Source of the DNA: Tildeniella nuda ZEHNDER 1965/U140
GTDB lineage: Bacteria; Cyanobacteriota; Cyanobacteriia; Leptolyngbyales; Leptolyngbyaceae
Length of the DNA stretch: 64,000 nt
NCBI GenBank assembly: GCA_019358895.1
Contig: JAHHIG010000002.1
Location: forward strand, 186,001 to 250,000
Direction: 5' to 3'
The position numbers were made by a program, and so were the translations under genes. Of this stretch, positions 5,782 through 33,359 are shown in pieces. Position 1 is the stretch's first letter, and the number at the start of each line of letters is the position of its first letter. The notes below the pieces were generated by a model, which was not told the origin of the DNA, made no database searches, and saw only the letters and a list, made by a program, of their open reading frames with translations.

Positions 5782-5837
5782 ACCGCTCAACGCTTCCTTT
5801 AAAGTCAGTATTGCTCCATCTTCTTCCATTTATTTCT

Positions 5838-5884
5838 TACTCCCCACTCCCTACTCCCCACTCCCTACTCCCCCTTCTTCCCCC
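5838..5884. repeat. Pyrimidine-rich short tandem repeat (CCCCACTCCCTACT type)
   Basis: Repeated 7-bp CCCTACT/CCCCACT words lie immediately before the SRPBCC ATG at 5885, leaving no Shine-Dalgarno sequence. Similar tracts occur at about 18936-18982. This matches the short tandemly repeated repetitive (STRR) heptamers known in cyanobacteria. Confidence 0.75.
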
Positions 5885-6334
5885 ATGTCCAACTGGCTCG
5901 AACATAGTGTCCAAGTAGAAGTTGATGCCCCGATCGATCTGGTCTGGAGCCTTTGGTCTGATCTAGAGCAAATGCCCCGCTGGATGAAGTGGATTGATTC
6001 TGTGACGGTTTTGGAAGACAAGCCCGAACTGTCGCGCTGGAAGTTGGCAACTGGGGGTTTTGAGTTTACGTGGCTCTCACGGATTCTCAAGATCGTAGAA
6101 CATCAAATTATTCAATGGGAATCGGTAGATGGGTTGCCCAATCGGGGTGCCATTCGCTTTTACGATCGGGGTGAAAAAGGCAGCATCGTCAAAATGTCGG
6201 TAGGCTATGCGATTCCTGGCTTCCTCGGTCAACTCCTCGACAACCTCTTCATTGGGCGCGTGGTGGAGTCAACCCTACATGCAGATTTAGAGCGCTTTCG
6301 GCAATATGCACTCAAGGCGAAAGCGAACCAATGA
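5885..6334 (+). CDS. SRPBCC family protein (polyketide cyclase/START-like fold)
   Basis: 149 residues. The opening HSVQVEVDAPIDLVWSLWSD and the following PRWMKWIDSVTVLE are the classic start of the SRPBCC/cyclase-dehydrase fold, a helix-grip domain that binds a hydrophobic ligand. No catalytic residue can be assigned. Its position just after zds suggests a role around carotenoids or membrane lipids, but that is inference from neighbourhood. The start codon follows a pyrimidine-rich repeat with no visible ribosome binding site, so it may depend on translation from upstream or on leaderless initiation. Confidence 0.85.
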   Translation: MSNWLEHSVQVEVDAPIDLVWSLWSDLEQMPRWMKWIDSVTVLEDKPELSRWKLATGGFEFTWLSRILKIVEHQIIQWESVDGLPNRGAIRFYDRGEKGSIVKMSVGYAIPGFLGQLLDNLFIGRVVESTLHADLERFRQYALKAKANQ

Positions 6335-6370: not shown

Positions 6371-7267
6371 ATGAAAAGAATCCCATTAATACATCCTATC
6401 TATCTTGACATACCGATGTTGGTATCGTTTGCGGCAGCAATACAAGGTGGTCTTGCCTTAGAAGCAGAAGTAACTGCTGAGAAAAAAGAAGGCGGCTCAA
6501 CATCAGTAAACGCCTCTGGAAAATTTGGACTCAGCAGATTATTTCATACACTTGTCGATACGAGCGCTTCAGTCGAAGCTGCTGGCAGTCGTTCTAGTGA
6601 ATCACACGAGATTCGTAAAGAGTCTAAAGCTTATACAGAAGCATCGATAGCAATCATTCTTTATCATCAACTTCAACAGAATGGTGGTTATATTGTGAAG
6701 CCACAAAGTATCAAAGATCTCCATATGTATTCTCCTGGTATGCTTGTAGAAGTAGCTGGAACAGTTGAGAAAAATGCTGTTGATGCAGTTATTGATTACC
6801 TTGATGCCGTAGATATCCTTAGTAAGGTAGCAACGCCTGAACCGCAGGTTCAATCAAAGGGCAAAGGCGTAAGCCAAGATAAAACTCCCCAATCGGAAAT
6901 TGCAAGGATGCGTGAAGCTCTTGATAAAGACCGAAAGCGAACTCCACTTTCCAACGTTGTAGTCCGATGTTCTGAGCCAGCAAATTTGAATGTTGTAGTC
7001 ACGCTACGCACAGAAAACTTGCGCGATTTAACGCTGAGTGAACTTCACCGAAATAGTGTTCGTATCGTTGGAAAAATTACTCGTGTAATTGGTAAAGATG
7101 AGGCAATGAGTTCATTCGAGAACTATGGCATGTCGTTATTACCTCCGCAGATGCTTAACGAGGTGTTCTTGCAAATTACTAACACTGAAGGTCTTGTGGC
7201 TGAATTTACCGATGTTCAGGTTAAAGGTCCAGCCTTTCAAATCCTTCCATTGATGATCTTTGTGTAG
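6371..7267 (+). CDS. DUF6414-like hypothetical protein, 298 aa
   Basis: The start IPLIHPIYLDIPMLVSFAAAIQGG resembles DUF6414 proteins, which open with a 'YLD...L...A.I.GG' pattern. The assignment is from memory and tentative. The middle is a helical region, followed by a Lys/Gln-rich linker near residues 155-180 and a beta-rich C-terminal part. It shows AT-rich codon choice and, unlike almost every neighbour, no GCGATCGC site in about 900 bases, which suggests recent acquisition. It starts 37 bases after the SRPBCC stop on the same strand. Function unknown. Confidence 0.7.
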   Translation: MKRIPLIHPIYLDIPMLVSFAAAIQGGLALEAEVTAEKKEGGSTSVNASGKFGLSRLFHTLVDTSASVEAAGSRSSESHEIRKESKAYTEASIAIILYHQLQQNGGYIVKPQSIKDLHMYSPGMLVEVAGTVEKNAVDAVIDYLDAVDILSKVATPEPQVQSKGKGVSQDKTPQSEIARMREALDKDRKRTPLSNVVVRCSEPANLNVVVTLRTENLRDLTLSELHRNSVRIVGKITRVIGKDEAMSSFENYGMSLLPPQMLNEVFLQITNTEGLVAEFTDVQVKGPAFQILPLMIFV

Positions 7268-7573
7268 TTAGGATGGTATGTCACAACTTTAGTGCAGCGG
7301 ACAGCCTAGGGATCTTGGTGCGGATGCAAGGGTTGATAGCATCTGCTGACTAGGAACATTATGCTATGAGTACATTCGCCGTCGACGAGGCTCTATGCGA
7401 TCGACCGTGAGAGCTCGTCTTGGCATTGCAGACGGTTCTACTCATGCAATCAGAGCGACGCTGTGGGCACTAATTCTACCAACACCAAACTAAACCTTAA
7501 CAAAACCTTCGTGGCTGATTAATAACTGCTTGGTAGTGTTCTTTTCATTACCTGTATAAATCTCCCTACAGTC
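7268..7573. other. Intergenic gap, 306 bp, upstream of phoD
   Basis: No gene supported. Promoter region for phoD. I could not pick out a convincing Pho box (an array of 8-bp direct repeats). Confidence 0.35.
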
Positions 7574-9369: not shown

Positions 9370-10761
9370 TCAACCTTCCCGCATTGCCTTGACCAATCGC
9401 GCCAGAGCCGATTTTAACTGTACGCCTGGGTCGATCGCCTGCCAGCCACTTGATGTCTTCTGCCGCAGCTCAAAATGCAGATGGGGACCGGTCGATAAGC
9501 CAGTACTGCCTACTCGTCCAATCACAGTGCCTTTTTCGACCCATTGCCCTGGTTTGACCAACATTGCTGAAAGGTGTGCGTAGAGGGTTTCTCGCGTGTC
9601 GTTTTGGTGAGACAGAATGACTGTGAGTCCATAACCATTCAGTTGATCAGCAAGCGCTACCTTACCATCGGCTGCGGCTAAAACGGGTGTACCCATTGGT
9701 GCGCCAATGTCAGTACCTTTGTGAAAGCGTCGATCGCCCCTGATCGGATGCACTCGCCAGCCAAAGCTGGATGTAATCGGCGCTGGTACGGCTAAGGGAA
9801 AAATGAAGCTCAACCCTTTCCATAATTCGGCGGGATTGAAACCACTGCCCGTTTCATAGGCTGCCGTCCAGTTTTGCCCGTTGAAGTCAGGTGTGCTATC
9901 GTCCACAACCACACCAACGCCACCCAGCGATCGCCCAAACCCTTTGAGTGAGTAGCTAACGTACTGCGGTTCGACGGGCGTTACATAGCTATACGGTGGG
10001 CTAGACTGTGGCGGCGTGAATTGCAGTGTTGATGGGAGCGATCGACCTGGAACTGTTGTCGGCACCCAGGCTTTCACCTTCTCTGCCAGTGGCTTGGATG
10101 CTTTTGGCAATGGTTGTTGACGCGCTAATACAGGTTTTACGGGTCGTTGTTTGGCTTCGATCGCGTCAATTTGAGCCAGTAGCGTTGCCTGACTGTCGGG
10201 AGAAAGCATCGTGTCGTGAGCCATTTGACGCGCTTGGGCGAATTGTCCTTCCTGAGCCGTCGCGATCGCCGTTGCTTCGAGATTTGCCCGTAGTTTTGCC
10301 TCTTTCAGTAACTTATCTTTGGCAACAATATCTGCTAAACGTTGCTTCAATACCAACCGCTGGGCGATCGTGGCTTGCTCAGTTGCCTTAGCCGTAGCGA
10401 CATCAGCAACCTGGTCATTTTTGGGCGGCGGTTGAATACTTTGCACATTAGGAGCAGCCACGGGCACGTCATTTACAATGTCAGTGCTGTTGCTGGTTTC
10501 GGTTGTTGTTTGAGCAGTACTGATGCTGCGTGGTGGTTGAGCAAAAGAGGGGGGAAGCGACTCAGGAGCGCTGGCAATGGGTTTGAGTACGGGAGCTGCT
10601 GTTTGCTGTGGCACGACTAGCGCAGCCTGAGGCGTATTGACATTGGCAGGTACAGCAGGCTTGGTAGCTTGTTCTGCTAATGTCTGGGCGATCGCGTCCA
10701 GCATTTTGAAAGGTTCCTGACTAATGGTCTGCCCATTTCTTTCTGGGCTGTCAACAGGCAA
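9370..10761 (-). CDS. M23 family metallopeptidase (LytM-like)
   Basis: 463 residues as read from a TTG at 10761. An in-frame stop lies directly before it, and an ATG at 10704 with AGGA 9 bases upstream is an alternative start. The C-terminal LytM domain (about residues 310-450) has the zinc/catalytic motifs HKGTD and GPHLHFEL. These enzymes cut peptidoglycan cross-links. The middle is low complexity (Pro/Gln/Ala) with a helical segment. Oddly, neither start gives a signal peptide, although a cell wall hydrolase should be exported; an N-terminal frameshift or a missed start are possible. Upstream and divergent is the phycobilisome-family gene. Confidence 0.85.
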   Translation of the reverse strand: MPVDSPERNGQTISQEPFKMLDAIAQTLAEQATKPAVPANVNTPQAALVVPQQTAAPVLKPIASAPESLPPSFAQPPRSISTAQTTTETSNSTDIVNDVPVAAPNVQSIQPPPKNDQVADVATAKATEQATIAQRLVLKQRLADIVAKDKLLKEAKLRANLEATAIATAQEGQFAQARQMAHDTMLSPDSQATLLAQIDAIEAKQRPVKPVLARQQPLPKASKPLAEKVKAWVPTTVPGRSLPSTLQFTPPQSSPPYSYVTPVEPQYVSYSLKGFGRSLGGVGVVVDDSTPDFNGQNWTAAYETGSGFNPAELWKGLSFIFPLAVPAPITSSFGWRVHPIRGDRRFHKGTDIGAPMGTPVLAAADGKVALADQLNGYGLTVILSHQNDTRETLYAHLSAMLVKPGQWVEKGTVIGRVGSTGLSTGPHLHFELRQKTSSGWQAIDPGVQLKSALARLVKAMREG

Positions 10762-10959
10762 TCAGGACGGTTCAGCGTCCTCCTAGCTTTCTTCAACCGC
10801 AGCGTTAACACAGGGATGGAATTATGTAGTTTTCATGAACCTTTCCTGATCGCAGGGAAGCTGAGGCTTCGCTTGAATGCATCTGCAGGTAGCTTAAGAG
10901 CAATTAAGTATAGGTCTCTGGGTACACTGAGCCAACCTAGACTACAAAGGGTTTTGCAC

Positions 10960-11433
10960 ATGTTGAGCCAGTTAGAAAAATTAAGCCTGGATACCGATGG
11001 TCGCTATGCTACTGATGAAGAACTGGCGTTTGTGAGTACGTATGTTCAGTCATTTGGTACGCGAGTGCAAACGTATCAAACCCTTCAGTTGGTCGAAGCC
11101 GCTATCGTGCAGCAGGTAGAGGCAAAAATGCGAGCGATCGATCCCGATCTTTTCCGCAGCGGCAACGAAGATATGAGTGCTAAGTGGAAACGCGATACCG
11201 TGCGAGTCCTGCGCTATTCTGCCGTCGCCATGCTCATGAATGATCCGGACACCTTACGCGAACGCTTTCTCTTGTGGTTTAAAACCATCATGAAAGCCTT
11301 CAGTGCACAGAAAAGCTGCAACGCGACCTATGTAGTCATGCAAGAAGTGGTCAAACAGCACTTAACGCCCGTTCAAGCCAGTTTGTTTTGCCCGATTCTG
11401 GAAATTAATCGGCAGGTATTGGGACAAGACTGA
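10960..11433 (+). CDS. Phycobilisome-family protein without bilin cysteine
   Basis: 157 residues from ATG 10960 (AAGG about 8-9 bases upstream). The frame is open further upstream, but the phycobilisome homology begins here (LEKLSLDTDGRYATDEELAF). The globin-like helices are recognisable. Where phycobiliprotein subunits carry the chromophore Cys in an A-C-L-R-D context, this protein has K-W-K-R-D (Trp76), so it cannot bind a bilin at that position. Cys120 and Cys144 are in other places. It is therefore a non-pigmented paralogue, annotated elsewhere simply as phycobilisome protein. Function unknown; roles in sensing or assembly are guesses. Confidence 0.8.
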   Translation: MLSQLEKLSLDTDGRYATDEELAFVSTYVQSFGTRVQTYQTLQLVEAAIVQQVEAKMRAIDPDLFRSGNEDMSAKWKRDTVRVLRYSAVAMLMNDPDTLRERFLLWFKTIMKAFSAQKSCNATYVVMQEVVKQHLTPVQASLFCPILEINRQVLGQD

Positions 11434-11487
11434 TAACGTTTTTATACCATTTCACTAAACTGTGGCTACACAGGCAAGCTTCGGCTG

Positions 11488-11580
<93 letters not shown>

Positions 11581-11644
11581 AGCAAAAACGAATCTGTAGG
11601 GCGATTTTGTAGAATTGGTATTAGCCAGCGGTTGCCGACACTGT

Positions 11645-11714
11645 TGCAACATTACAAGCGGCTGCAACATTACAAGCGGCTGCAACACCATAAGCGGCTG
11701 CAACACCATAAGCG
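11645..11714 (+). repeat. 18-bp tandem repeat, about 3.9 copies
   Basis: Unit TGCAACATTACAAGCGGC. The first two copies are identical; the next ones carry ACCATAA in place of ATTACAA. Confidence 0.9.
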
Positions 11715-11752
11715 TTTTGGTCAGCCCTTCGCGCTTGCATGAGACCTAATTC

Positions 11753-12244
11753 CTACTCCTCAAACGACATTAAAAGCTGATGCAGCAGTTGATCGAGCGC
11801 CTGACGTTCCGCCTCCTCTAAACCGCTAAGGAGACGATGCTCATTGGCAACATGAGCTTCAACTGCTTTTTCGATCACGTTGAACCCTTTATCGGTCAAC
11901 TGAATGAGTGTCCCGCGCCGATCGGTGGGATCAGGAGTGCGCTTTACAAGGTCAGCCTGTTCTAAGCGATCAATCCGATGCGTCATCGTGCCAGATGAAA
12001 CCATCATCGTGTTGAATAGCTCAGTCGGCGAAAGCTGATATGGCTGACCAGTACGGCGCAAGGTCGCCAACACATCAAATTCACCAAAGTTCAGGTCAAA
12101 GTTTGCAAAAGTCTCTTGAAGCCCTCGTTCCAGGTGTTTCGCCAGACGCGTCATCCTGCCAATGATACCCATCGGTGACACGTCTAAATCAGGACGCTCT
12201 TTCTGCCATTGCGCCAAAATCGCATCGACTGGATCGGCTTTCAT
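11753..12244 (-). CDS. MarR family transcriptional regulator
   Basis: 163 residues. The central winged helix-turn-helix is clear (NFDLNFGEFDVLATLRRTG, SPTELFNTMMVSSGTMTHRI, then the wing RTPDPTDRRGTLIQLTDKG). MarR proteins are dimeric repressors released by small phenolic or other ligands. It is divergent from an EamA transporter gene at 12343, and the 98-bp gap carries repeated palindromes of MarR type, so it very likely represses itself and the transporter. The inducer is unknown. Confidence 0.93.
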   Translation of the reverse strand: MKADPVDAILAQWQKERPDLDVSPMGIIGRMTRLAKHLERGLQETFANFDLNFGEFDVLATLRRTGQPYQLSPTELFNTMMVSSGTMTHRIDRLEQADLVKRTPDPTDRRGTLIQLTDKGFNVIEKAVEAHVANEHRLLSGLEEAERQALDQLLHQLLMSFEE

Positions 12245-30776: not shown

Positions 30777-31361
30777 CTAACCGGATGCTGAAGTTTCTAC
30801 CGATCGAAGCACACGACAGGGATTGCCCACTGCCACCACATTCGCGGGAATATCTTTTGTAACCACGCTTCCGGCTCCAATAGTAGTGTTATCACCGATC
30901 GTCACACCGGGACAGATAATCGCACCACCCCCAATCCAAACATTATTGCCAATGCGAATCGGTGCTGCCAGTTCGCGCCCCGTTAGTCGCACGGTGGGAT
31001 CAGTGGGATGATACGCGGCGTAAATCTGTACATAGGGCGCACACAGGACATCATTGCCAATGTGTACCTTATTGCAGTCGAGAATTACGCCGCCATAGTT
31101 CATGTAAAAGCGATCGCCCACCGTAATGTGGCTACCATAGTCGCAGTGAAAGGGCGGCACGATTTGCGGCTTCTCGCCCACGGCATCAAACAGCGCTTCT
31201 AATAGTTGTGTACGCTTGTCTTGTTCCGTTTCCGTTGTCTGGTTGTAGAGCCGCAAGAGACGCAATGCTCGTTTACTCTCCGCATCTAACTCAGCATCTT
31301 TGGCAAGGTAAAGTTCCCCTGCCAACATCTTTTGCTTTTCGGTTCTAAGTGTGTCGTTCAT
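30777..31361 (-). CDS. Maltose O-acetyltransferase / NodL family hexapeptide acetyltransferase
   Basis: 194 residues. N-terminal MAT domain (EKQKMLAGELYLAKDAELDA) and a left-handed beta-helix of hexapeptide repeats (IRIGNNVWIGGGAIICPGVT, IGDNTTIGAGSVVTKDIP). Catalytic His is expected in QIYAAYHPTDP. It acetylates a sugar or other small molecule with acetyl-CoA. Substrate cannot be told from sequence. Intact. Confidence 0.9.
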   Translation of the reverse strand: MNDTLRTEKQKMLAGELYLAKDAELDAESKRALRLLRLYNQTTETEQDKRTQLLEALFDAVGEKPQIVPPFHCDYGSHITVGDRFYMNYGGVILDCNKVHIGNDVLCAPYVQIYAAYHPTDPTVRLTGRELAAPIRIGNNVWIGGGAIICPGVTIGDNTTIGAGSVVTKDIPANVVAVGNPCRVLRSVETSASG

Positions 31362-31488
31362 AATAAGACCTTGCTATACCGCTGGGTGCTCAATGGAGGC
31401 AGTGACTTGAAAATTACTTGTGAGGTAAGAACAAAACAATCTACCAAGATCCCGGACATTTGGTAGGCTCAATCAGTTTTGATTTGAA

Positions 31489-32154
31489 TTAAACTGCTTC
31501 TTCTAGTTGGTTGTTCAGGGCTTCACGATTAAGCTCGTAATTTTGGAACACGTCACTCAAAACAGTCTTATCTGTTTCAGACAGCCGCACTAAACCCCAC
31601 AAGAGATGTTCAGTCCCGATCGACTTCTTACCCTGAAGTCGAACGATTTGCAAAGCAAGCTCTAGAACGAACTTACCTTGCGGACTGAATTCGAGATTTT
31701 CGCGGGATTCAAACGAATGTTCATTGGTTTCAATGTCTTGCGACACACCGTTAGCTCGAAGTAAACGAGCCGCGGTTGTGGTTGGATCAGCCAACAAGCC
31801 AGCCAGCAGATGCTCTGGTTCAACTTGGAAGTTCTGTAAGCGTGCTGCCTCATTTCGAGCAAAATTGACTGCATTGATTGCTTTCTCATTGAACCGCTCA
31901 AACCCGAACTCAAAGCCAAAGAAATTTTTGACTCGCTCAACTAATGTCTGCATCGATTGCTTTGCCTCATAAATGAAAACGTCTTCGATTGCGACGTTAA
32001 ACAGACTGGCAAGTTTAAAAGCCATGTCTAGGCTGGGGTCAAACTTACCAGATTCAAACCCATTGACCGCCTGACGACTCACTCCTAATGCTCTGGCGAG
32101 GTCAGATTGTGACCATTGATGCCGTTGTCGAAGTTCTTTCAGTCGGTTTTTCAT
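31489..32154 (-). CDS. XRE regulator fused to a Clp N-terminal (ClpC/ClpA-N type) domain
   Basis: 221 residues. Residues 3-60 form an XRE helix-turn-helix (LKELRQRHQWSQSDLARALG, VSRQAVNGFESGKFDPSL). Residues 87-137 and 156-205 are the two Clp N repeats (NFARNEAARLQNFQVEPEHL; FSPQGKFVLELALQIVRLQG, then IGTEHLLWGLVR). Clp N domains bind adaptors and substrates for the ClpC/ClpA unfoldases, but no AAA+ module is present here. I infer a repressor whose activity or stability is sensed through Clp ligands. Two 17-bp operator-like palindromes lie just upstream, fitting self-control. I know of few such fusions. Confidence 0.85.
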   Translation of the reverse strand: MKNRLKELRQRHQWSQSDLARALGVSRQAVNGFESGKFDPSLDMAFKLASLFNVAIEDVFIYEAKQSMQTLVERVKNFFGFEFGFERFNEKAINAVNFARNEAARLQNFQVEPEHLLAGLLADPTTTAARLLRANGVSQDIETNEHSFESRENLEFSPQGKFVLELALQIVRLQGKKSIGTEHLLWGLVRLSETDKTVLSDVFQNYELNREALNNQLEEAV

Positions 32155-32171
32155 AGGATCGCCCGCTCACC

Positions 32172-32223
32172 GTCAAGTATTACTTTACATCACTGCAAAA
32201 TAAAACGTCAAGCATAGCTTGAC
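32172..32223. promoter_or_regulatory. Twin 17-bp operator in the XRE-ClpN promoter
   Basis: GTCAAGCATAGCTTGAC (32207-32223) is a perfect palindrome of 7-bp arms. GTCAAGTATTACTTTAC (32172-32188) is a diverged copy with 13 of 17 matches. Their starts are 35 bases apart. On the minus strand the first overlaps a TTGACG that could be a -35 box (with TAAAGT 18 bases on), so binding would block transcription of the regulator gene. Confidence 0.65.
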
Positions 32224-32316
32224 AAAAATGTCTGTGGGATCGCTTGGAGTAGTTGAAGCTCTCATCTCAAACGCGGCATAATAAGCTACTGGAGCGGATG
32301 TTGAAGATCGCTAGGC

Positions 32317-32610
32317 TTAACCAGACATTTCCTGAATCAACACATACGGTTGCACGATAAGCGCATTGAAGCGTGTAGATTGGTTCAGGTTCCAGTCTGA
32401 TAGTTGAGTTGGAAAGGGCTTATGGATCAGGTTTTCCTCGATCCAGGGTTGGACTCGCGCTGTATCGTCGTTGGCGATCGCTACAGCCACATCCACCACA
32501 TCCAGCCCCAACTCCACCACAATGAGCGTATCTCGACGGGCATGAGGGGCAAGCCAGTCCCATTCTGCCTCTGCCAGCGCTTCCGCCAGTTCTGCTCTTA
32601 AATCGCTCAT
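32317..32610 (-). CDS. DUF2288 family protein
   Basis: 97 residues. The sequence matches DUF2288 as I remember it (LAEALAEAEWDWLAPHARRD, VDVAVAIANDD, RFNALIVQPYVLIQE). These are small, soluble, conserved proteins of Cyanobacteria and Proteobacteria with no known role. No signal or membrane segment. Confidence 0.85.
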   Translation of the reverse strand: MSDLRAELAEALAEAEWDWLAPHARRDTLIVVELGLDVVDVAVAIANDDTARVQPWIEENLIHKPFPTQLSDWNLNQSTRFNALIVQPYVLIQEMSG

Positions 32611-32640
32611 AGATCAGTCCAATTTGCTTTGTAAACGTTG

Positions 32641-32710
32641 TTTAGCTTTTAGCTTTCAGCTTTCAGCTTTCAGCTTTAAATTTCACGCTGAAGGCTGATG
32701 GCTGACGGCT
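32641..32710. repeat. Short tandem repeat (AGCTTTC / GCTGATG words)
   Basis: AGCTTTCAGCTTTCAGCTTT and related GCTGA words lie between DUF2288 and plsC. Same dispersed family as at 18211 and 53937. Confidence 0.7.
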
Positions 32711-32720
32711 CCCCAGCGCA

Positions 32721-33359
32721 TCACCGCCCTAAATCGTGCAGCGCATTGATAGCATCCGCGCATTGTTGGGTCACGGTTTCTAGTGCGCCACGATCGCCCG
32801 CTTTTGGTGGCGCAATGACTTCACCAATCCGAATTGTCAAAGGCACGGAACGGGGAGCCGCAGAACCTTTGCGGAAAATAGCATGAGTACCCCATAAGCT
32901 TACGGGTAATAACGGAGCCTGGGTTTTAGCCGCGAGCCATGCCGCACCCAGTTTGGGATCAGCCACCTTACCATCGGGTGTGCGTGTGCCCGTGAGAAAT
33001 ACGCCTGCTGCCCAGTTTTGCTCCAAAAAGCCCATTGCGGCTCGGAGGGCACTGCGATCGGCAGAACCCCGCTTGACGGGATAGGCACCATAGAGCGCGA
33101 TCGCCTGCTTCAACACAGGCACCCGAAACAGTTCTTCCTTTGCCATGTATGCCACTGGACGACCTACACAGCAAGACAACAGCGGCGGATCAAAATCGCT
33201 GGCATGATTGCTTACCACAACAAGTGGTCCCATTTTGGGCACATTTTCTGCGCCATAAATCCGTCCCCGAAAGTAAAGATGTAAACCAGGACTCACGATC
33301 GACCACTTAAACAAGTGATAGAGCAAAAGGCTGGCAAACGGTTCACGAGTTCTCGGCAT
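32721..33359 (-). CDS. plsC: 1-acyl-sn-glycerol-3-phosphate acyltransferase
   Basis: 212 residues from ATG 33359 (open frame extends 16 codons further, but the family begins around here). Acyltransferase motif I NHASDFDPP, motif II region near VKRGSADRSA, motif III GVFLTGTRTPDG (the usual F-P-E-G-T is altered to F-L-T-G-T), and motif IV LPVSLWG. It makes phosphatidic acid from lysophosphatidate, the second acylation in membrane lipid synthesis. It is last in the plsX-fabH-fabD-plsC cluster, which supports the call. Confidence 0.9.
   Translation of the reverse strand: MPRTREPFASLLLYHLFKWSIVSPGLHLYFRGRIYGAENVPKMGPLVVVSNHASDFDPPLLSCCVGRPVAYMAKEELFRVPVLKQAIALYGAYPVKRGSADRSALRAAMGFLEQNWAAGVFLTGTRTPDGKVADPKLGAAWLAAKTQAPLLPVSLWGTHAIFRKGSAAPRSVPLTIRIGEVIAPPKAGDRGALETVTQQCADAINALHDLGR

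Follow-up and report, generated by a model that had tools for sequence, protein, structure and literature searches.

A cyanobacterial XRE-Clp_N protein with twin operators in its own promoter: a candidate sensor and decoy in an integron-type gene cassette

What can a Clp N domain do when it is joined to a DNA-binding domain and the motor is missing? The question is raised by positions 31489-32223 of the stretch of 64,000 nucleotides analysed here (the window), which comprise an open reading frame (32154-31489) and its promoter (Table 1). The initial annotation had described the product as an XRE helix-turn-helix (HTH) followed by two Clp N repeats and no AAA+ module, a description with which both Pfam and the comparison of an AlphaFold2 model with the PDB agree. 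Pfam places HTH_3 at residues 5-58 of the 221-residue protein (E 4.4e-16) and Clp_N in two stretches (E 2.1e-14); no AAA+ family is present among the 17 Pfam families listed for the frame, which sets the protein apart from the ClpC/ClpA unfoldases. In a phmmer search of solved structures, the HTH matched a PbsX-type protein of 65 residues (9k3w), and the remainder matched ClpC N domains.

The AlphaFold2 model, computed from 26 input sequences, has a mean pLDDT of 81.1 and a pTM of 0.61, with residues 61-82 below 50. Residues 1-62 of the model superpose on 9k3w with a Z of 13.3 and an rmsd of 0.8 over 62 residues. The C-terminal part (alignment rows spanning residues 81-221) resembles the ClpC N domains of the PDB with Z up to 16.6, so that the Clp N fold looked for by structure prediction does appear. 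Purifying selection acts on the gene, the Clp repeats included, as judged from 33 distinct intact coding sequences: median pairwise dN/dS is 0.112 for the whole gene (387 of 528 pairs usable), and, with 312 to 431 usable pairs for the parts, 0.055 for the HTH (residues 1-65), 0.128 and 0.135 for the two Clp repeats and 0.30 for the loop between them.

Table 1. Coordinates in the window of the XRE-Clp_N gene and its surrounding features
Feature	Position	Strand	Basis or remark
Inserted stretch	31364..32296	.	Absent at the same place in G435, G479, G569 and G537
Possible terminator: hairpin CTACCAA...TTGGTAG, then T-rich run	31429..31466	-	Stem search in the window
XRE-Clp_N open reading frame	31489..32154	-	ATG at 32154, 221 aa
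ClpC-type N domain, residues 85-221	31492..31902	-	Pfam, phmmer, structure comparison (rows span 81-221)
Linker, residues 63-84	31903..31968	-	pLDDT <50 at residues 61-82
HTH domain, residues 1-62, PbsX-type XRE fold	31969..32154	-	Pfam, 9k3w alignment
Operator 2, GTAAAG-n5-CTTGAC on the gene strand	32172..32188	.	Left arm overlaps the -10 box
Likely promoter, TTGACG, 18 bp, TAAAGT	32182..32211	-	Lies across both operators
Operator 1, GTCAAG-n5-CTTGAC	32207..32223	.	Right arm (gene strand) contains the -35 box
Decayed attC-like site, outer parts kept, inner arms lost	32273..32319	+	On the gene's 5' side, at the place of the relatives' strong sites

The fold of the HTH, together with an operator palindrome in the promoter of its own gene, identifies the protein at sequence level as an XRE repressor. 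The two palindromic sites recognised in the promoter by the initial annotation were found again at the same places, and the alignment of relatives that it had proposed shows palindromes in both positions in 34 of 36 distinct upstream regions; L059 keeps one operator and L048 lacks both, even though the expected place falls within its 130 available bases. These 36 regions remained from 52 of at least 100 bases after 16 had been dropped as duplicates over the last 100 bases, and they take in L060 (a form with pentapeptide repeats), L059 and L151; a further 12 had been left out beforehand as lying outside the XRE-Clp_N family, broken or without sequence. The spacing of the two operators is 35 in 28 regions, 34 in five and 33 in one, and in L043 the pair is shifted by 53 bases away from the start codon. 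For the 28 rows spaced at 35, the information content is 1.94 and 1.96 bits per base in the operator arms and 0.78 and 1.45 in the spacers within the operators, as against 0.56 for the 18 bases between the operators and 0.46 for the upstream flank. When two mismatches are allowed, the window holds six operator matches on both strands, four of them being the twin sites (shuffle mean 0.49).

The likely promoter is one of three promoter-like matches in 31300-32400, where shuffled sequences give 1.1 on average, and both of its hexamers fall in conserved upstream columns. At the third operator base, 33 of 34 regions have C in operator 1 and 33 of 34 have A in operator 2, a difference that would be explained by the presence of the -35 and -10 boxes in the operator arms. 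Since the operators extend across these boxes, binding of the HTH there should block the promoter.

A natural domain swap suggests that it is the HTH that reads the twin operators. L060, the same gene as L152, encodes the same HTH followed by pentapeptide repeats (recognised by eye) and no Clp N domain, and its operators are located at -69 and -34 with one base changed in each left arm. The retention of the HTH and both operators in this Clp N-less gene makes the HTH the likelier reader of the DNA. Small PbsX-type XRE proteins (9k3w and the HTH-only proteins among L061-L112) share the HTH fold, mostly at 44-68 percent identity; they differ in being 62-78 aa long, in having no Clp N domain and, for the most part, in having no half-site pair. 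A half-site pair lies within 150 bases upstream in eight of 58 further HTH relatives and is missing from the other 50, the expectation from 500 simple shuffles being a mean of 0.03 and a maximum of 2; the pattern was defined after such sites had been seen, and several of the eight bearers are closely related. Seven of the eight are HTH-only and one is of the type with an additional C-terminal part described below. The HTH-only bearers (L063, L071, L105, L107, L109, L110 and L112) are non-cyanobacterial and keep pairs such as GTAAGG-TTAA-CTTGAC. Their occurrence outside the cyanobacteria implies that operators of this type may predate the Clp N fusion.

The search for further targets indicates that the gene seems to control only itself, as far as pattern searches reach, which degenerate targets could escape. 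The strict operator pattern occurs at five sites in the window's 6.08-Mb genome (reversed control, two); two of these are the gene's own and the other three all lie inside open reading frames, so no other operator in this genome is convincing. The loose pattern, with two mismatches, gives 76 and 79 matches on the two strands against 71 and 76 in the reversed control. In ten further genomes, 12 forward and 10 reverse strict sites were counted, own-promoter sites included, against 10 and 9 in the control, and in the carriers G005, G060, G289 and G070 the non-self strict sites are inside open reading frames. Among frames within about 2.5-3.5 kb of the gene in 36 loci, some of them with short flanks, no neighbour has relatives in more than four other loci, and a partner gene or operon was rejected on this account; the largest syntenic group consists of four Scytonema and Tolypothrix loci (L039, L040, L043 and L046). 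With its own promoter as the only target seen, the benefit of the gene should lie in the Clp N protein itself.

A precedent for such an arrangement is mycobacterial ClpC2, which represses itself through two pseudopalindromes, CGTCAAC-n5-GTTGACG, over its -35 and -10 elements; binding of cyclomarin to its Clp N domain relieves the repression, and the drug is sequestered by the additional ClpC2 (PMC10030653, in excerpt). Two other peptides are reported in a later paper to bind ClpC2 without inducing it (excerpts of PMC12913811), and the ClpC2 authors raise peptide antibiotics of neighbours and phage proteins as ideas (excerpts of PMC10030653). The likeness is twofold. Both proteins consist of a separate N-terminal domain followed by a bare ClpC-type N domain, with no AAA+ modules, and the model matches the ClpC2 C-terminal domains 8ad9 and 8b9o with Z of 14.4 and 14.2. 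Both genes also have two pseudopalindromes of the form GTCAA(C/G)-n5-(G/C)TTGAC over their own -35 and -10 boxes, here by sequence only. The differences are equally evident. ClpC2 begins with a four-helix dimer, the cyanobacterial protein with an XRE HTH. In the ClpC2 family the arginines R185 and R189 are conserved for DNA contact, and the Clp N domain has been proposed as the DNA contact (PMC10030653, in excerpt). The ClpC2 operators lie 1-2 bases before the reading frame and the transcript is thought to be leaderless, whereas operator 2 of the cyanobacterial gene spans -34 to -18; residence in a cassette is not described for ClpC2 in the accessible excerpts. On paper, the XRE-Clp_N protein would work like ClpC2; it is not a ClpC2, because its N-terminal domain differs.

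If the Clp N domain is the useful part, its binding surface should be informative. Residues F85, R87, F88, N89 and E114 of the window's protein correspond to F3, R5, F6, T7 and E32 of Bacillus subtilis ClpC, and F156, S157, E182 and H183 to Y80, T81, E106 and H107. In B. subtilis numbering, the kept residues among 29 family sequences are F3 in 27, R5 in 28, F6 in 29, T7 in 24 (the window's protein has N), E32 in 26 (K or Q in the other three), E106 and H107 in 29 each and K85 in 23. Position 80, which is Y in B. subtilis ClpC and F in the ClpC of the window's genome, is F in 22 and L in seven; the T81 position is S in 27, R83 is changed in all 29 and K86 in 28. R5, T81 and H107 are among the ligand-face residues of the ClpC N domain. 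T7, E32 and E106 form part of its phosphoarginine sites, K85 is contacted by cyclic peptides bound in the groove, and the N-domain sites for MecA and phosphoarginine also hold the resting state of ClpC (PMC12583610, in excerpt); PDB titles name F2 and F80 of ClpC1 as cyclomarin mutants. The N domain of cyanobacterial ClpC shares about 40-44 percent identity with that of the XRE-Clp_N protein and mostly the same ligand-face positions; the latter differs in having no AAA+ modules and a shorter loop between the repeats. On this alignment the ligand-binding face is mostly kept and the motor is gone; sensing by the N domain is plausible.

The distribution of the family is patchy. In the species-level genome collection, 26 of the best 80 of 117 loci are full length, with 60-92 percent identity; 25 of them bear cyanobacterial record titles and one is a metagenome bin labelled Tatlockia (L042). 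When the HTH part was searched against 388 genomes of the class, 28 gave a match at E 1e-15 or better, of which 22 form a high-scoring group (E 2.6e-29 or better) with one match each. Four members of this group deviate: in L152 pentapeptide repeats replace Clp N, a stop interrupts L147, L151 ends at a contig end and L154 is interrupted by unknown bases. L005, L041 and L147 are one and the same copy, broken after 129 residues. Across the phylum (386 genomes), most matches listed are ClpC-like frames of 800 residues or more, and at least seven places besides the window's match from residue 1 or 2 through most of the length, two of them being longer fusions and one a doubtful frame with stops. 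Among the open-access papers listed, none deals with an XRE-Clp_N protein.

Three loci (L008, L009 and L161) encode an XRE-Clp_N protein with an extra C-terminal part (389-417 aa in total) and are without the twin operator pair; the extra part looks, by our reading, like Uma2. In a tree of Clp N domains these three lie near ClpC and ungrouped, and the XRE-Clp_N family falls into one group with a node support of 0.33. A single origin for all the fusions was therefore rejected; they likely arose separately, a conclusion for which the support is weak. No matching plasmid or phage record covers 80 percent of the protein, so that carriage by plasmids or phages was rejected as well, and in viral contigs none of 11 loci covers more than residues 1-116.

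An explanation for the scattered occurrence, unexpected and absent from the initial annotation, comes from the DNA around the gene. By the evidence of its relatives, read from sequence, the XRE-Clp_N gene is an integron-type cassette. Among seven genomes of the window's genus, the maltose acetyltransferase and DUF2288 genes that flank it adjoin each other without it in G435, G479 and G569, and the empty site leaves 37 bp (G435) or 47 bp (G537) between the flanking similarities. In G537 this site is empty and the genome's own copy of the gene is found on another contig; in G591 the two flanks are on different contigs, and in G573 only one flank was found. Eight loci with largely different neighbours (the window, L033, L034, L035, L036, L037, L047 and L058) share DNA similarity over about 144-148 bases or more before the ATG and, in the nearest pairs, over 95-134 bases past the stop. 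The cassette end sequence recurs in ten genomes with 38 forward and 41 reverse matches (12 and 9 in the reversed control), in places clustered at a spacing of about 1-6 kb, and, read in the other direction, it proved to be half of a longer site.

An integron attC site has the plan R''-L''-L'-R', with paired inner arms and an unpaired G. Of 34 printed sites, 19, none of them beside an XRE-Clp_N gene, were aligned; six beside a family gene were left out on purpose and nine for want of a clear second half or as partial rows, although the first L239 row among these nine may be a true attC. In the alignment of 19 sites, both partners vary in 10 of 13 predicted pairs, and one arm carries an invariant unpaired G. 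A covariance model built on it replaced a strict text pattern which had missed the sites beside the gene. With this model, an attC on the gene's 5' side and on the opposite strand was found at E <1e-3 in six of 33 XRE-Clp_N loci: L034 (95.1 bits), L033 (91.5), L036 (77.8), L035 (62.3), L037 (48.0) and L045 (35.3). The count of 33 leaves out eight of 41 sources, namely L041, L048, L059, L060, L151, L008, L009 and L161; L006 and L052 have the same coding sequence. Marginal sites occupy the same place in L058 (18.6 bits) and L047 (17.4 bits). L037 has a second attC at 5786-5882 (33.9 bits), which puts the gene between two attC sites; L058 has a further one at 5909-6002 (36.3 bits), and L041 has three in one locus of 5.7 kb. 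The pentapeptide form L060 also has its attC (78.0 bits, E <1e-3), and the combination in L060 and L152 of HTH, operators and attC with pentapeptide repeats suggests that cassettes of this type can exchange their C-terminal part. The other 27 of the 33 loci, the window included, have no significant attC, and a cassette origin there is at most inferred.

In the window itself, the site at 32273-32319 scores 10.6 bits (E 0.024) in a search of 1.2 kb with filters off, and is not reported when the whole window is searched with default filters and E up to 1; the window's copy is accordingly read, from its sequence, as a cassette relic. The window's genome encodes an integron integrase (G000:C36) of 462.7 bits, against a cut-off of 265. 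Integrases over this cut-off were found in five of ten genomes searched and in none of 14 control genomes, and the carriers G537, G571, G488 and G468 have none over it. The genome's own integron occupies positions 9461-12075 of locus L266 (G000:C36:184000-196191), with the integrase, an oppositely oriented frame of 350 aa and, close to the contig end, an attC scoring 61.2 bits. Elsewhere in the window, a DUF6414 frame (6371-7267) is immediately followed on the plus strand by an attC at 7275-7367 (48.6 bits, E 3.1e-8), the two (6371-7367) probably being a second integron-type cassette. Compared with integron cassettes in general, the XRE-Clp_N units share the covarying attC arms with their unpaired G, the single gene, the different places of residence, the empty sites and the genomic integrase; they differ in that the gene, with a promoter and operators of its own, runs opposite to the attC direction, and in that the window's attC is decayed.

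From these observations a self-contained sensor and decoy within an integron-type gene cassette can be proposed, a reading to which an even chance of being right is given. A dimer of the HTH would sit on the two operators across the gene's own promoter and keep expression low. The ClpC-type N domain would retain most of the ClpC surface for clients, adaptors and peptide antibiotics, and a ligand on it, for which a cyclic peptide, a ClpC-attacking phage or foreign protein, or an overflow of unfolded clients are candidates, would cause the protein to leave the promoter and to be made in quantity. Abundant XRE-Clp_N protein could then compete with ClpC for the ligand, and so guard or tune ClpC. 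The sensor and decoy is favoured because the gene's own promoter is the only target seen, and cassette residence with patchy presence fits a protective trait against something met only sometimes, for instance peptide antibiotics from neighbours or phage proteins. Integron cassettes are described as serving largely detoxification and phage resistance (PMC8618304, in excerpt), which agrees with this. Against it stand the ligand face, which could equally serve the binding of adaptors, with E32 replaced in three of 29 sequences and T7 by N in the window's protein, the single operator of L059 and the lack of operators in L048, the 50 of 58 HTH relatives without the half-site pair, the small number of genomes in which targets were sought by pattern, the 27 of 33 loci without a significant attC and the five of ten genomes without an integrase over the cut-off. 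Of the one-component sensor or Clp competitor imagined by the initial annotation, the autoregulatory plan, the Clp N fold, the kept ligand face and the ClpC2 precedent (PMC10030653, in excerpt) favour the sensing and competing part, at sequence level; the wider regulon found no support in the pattern searches.

The main rival is a decoy for ClpS or NblA: the N domain would compete for ClpS1, ClpS2 or NblA, or dock on ClpC, so limiting ClpCP, and the HTH would only set the dose. ClpS1, ClpS2 and NblA are the cyanobacterial ClpC adaptors named in the excerpts of PMC7966870, and the MecA and phosphoarginine sites that also hold the ClpC resting state (PMC12583610, in excerpt) are mostly kept; presence in 22 of 388 class genomes (the high-scoring group) and mobility as a cassette are more in keeping with an optional protective trait than with a regulator of core machinery, and adaptor modulation is considered unlikely, if the strongest of the alternatives. 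Less likely again is a regulator in which Clp N reads the Clp load or its adaptors and the HTH adjusts other genes, much as the initial annotation had linked proteolytic load to the control of other genes. XRE regulators can have further targets, DdrO being an example (PMC12565409, in excerpt), and both the Clp N fold and the ligand-face residues are kept; the genome scan gave no clear excess of operators, however, with the extra strict sites of the window's genome and of four other carriers inside reading frames, the loose pattern no commoner than in the control and no widely shared neighbour.

The two remaining explanations are given very little weight. Toxin-antitoxin genes are among the commonest cassette functions (PMC8618304, in excerpt), and an antitoxin-like or addiction element could be imagined, in which a self-repressing XRE protein stabilises the cassette array without any use to the host. 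The self-repression plan, the own promoter and the cassette residence agree with it, but no partner gene is common across the loci and the C-terminal domain is a conserved Clp N, which leaves it highly improbable. Even less credible is a role like that of plant ClpT, another bare Clp N-type fold, as an accessory of the ClpP/ClpR core: the model does match ClpT2 (Z 15.0) and ClpT1 (Z 14.7), but identity is 27-37 percent with ClpC N domains (top rows) against 21 with ClpT, and an operator-bound HTH has no obvious place in such a role.

An extension of the sensor and decoy reading is held only tentatively, and with clearly less confidence than the reading itself. Cyanobacterial integrons would, on this extension, spread a one-gene sensor of compounds or phage proteins directed at the ClpC N domain, which on sensing them would release its own promoter and fill the cell with N-domain decoys. 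Cassette anatomy gives the scattered presence a natural reason and suggests selection by agents encountered from time to time. If the proposal is true, the protein would be the convergent equivalent of ClpC2, built on another DNA-binding domain, and cassettes of this sort, with sensing, repression and shielding combined in a single protein, would make up a new protective class. The open-access literature yielded one case, ClpC2, of a bare Clp N domain that senses a ClpC-binding antibiotic and represses its own gene; a second, separately built cyanobacterial case with a near-identical operator plan would suggest that the shielding of ClpC is a recurring need. The system would also be simple to test, with one gene, one promoter and two operators, and with L060 as a natural control in which Clp N is replaced.

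Some smaller features of the insertion and its surroundings may be added. The 9-mer CATAATAAG occurs at only two places in the window (both strands), 31359 and 32277, near the insertion edges, and may be a target duplication. A transposon with terminal inverted repeats was rejected, the inverted ends being better explained as attC halves. No second copy of the stretch 31364-31488 exists in the window's genome. The region of the possible terminator aligns in eight loci, and the stem search gave the stem with its T-rich tail only in the window; the hairpin is not among the results of a second scan, which used loops of 3-8, and no known RNA family reaches its gathering score in 31000-32800. Between the DUF2288 and acyltransferase genes, at about 32643-32677 of the window, the motif AGCTTTC forms short head-to-tail repeats.
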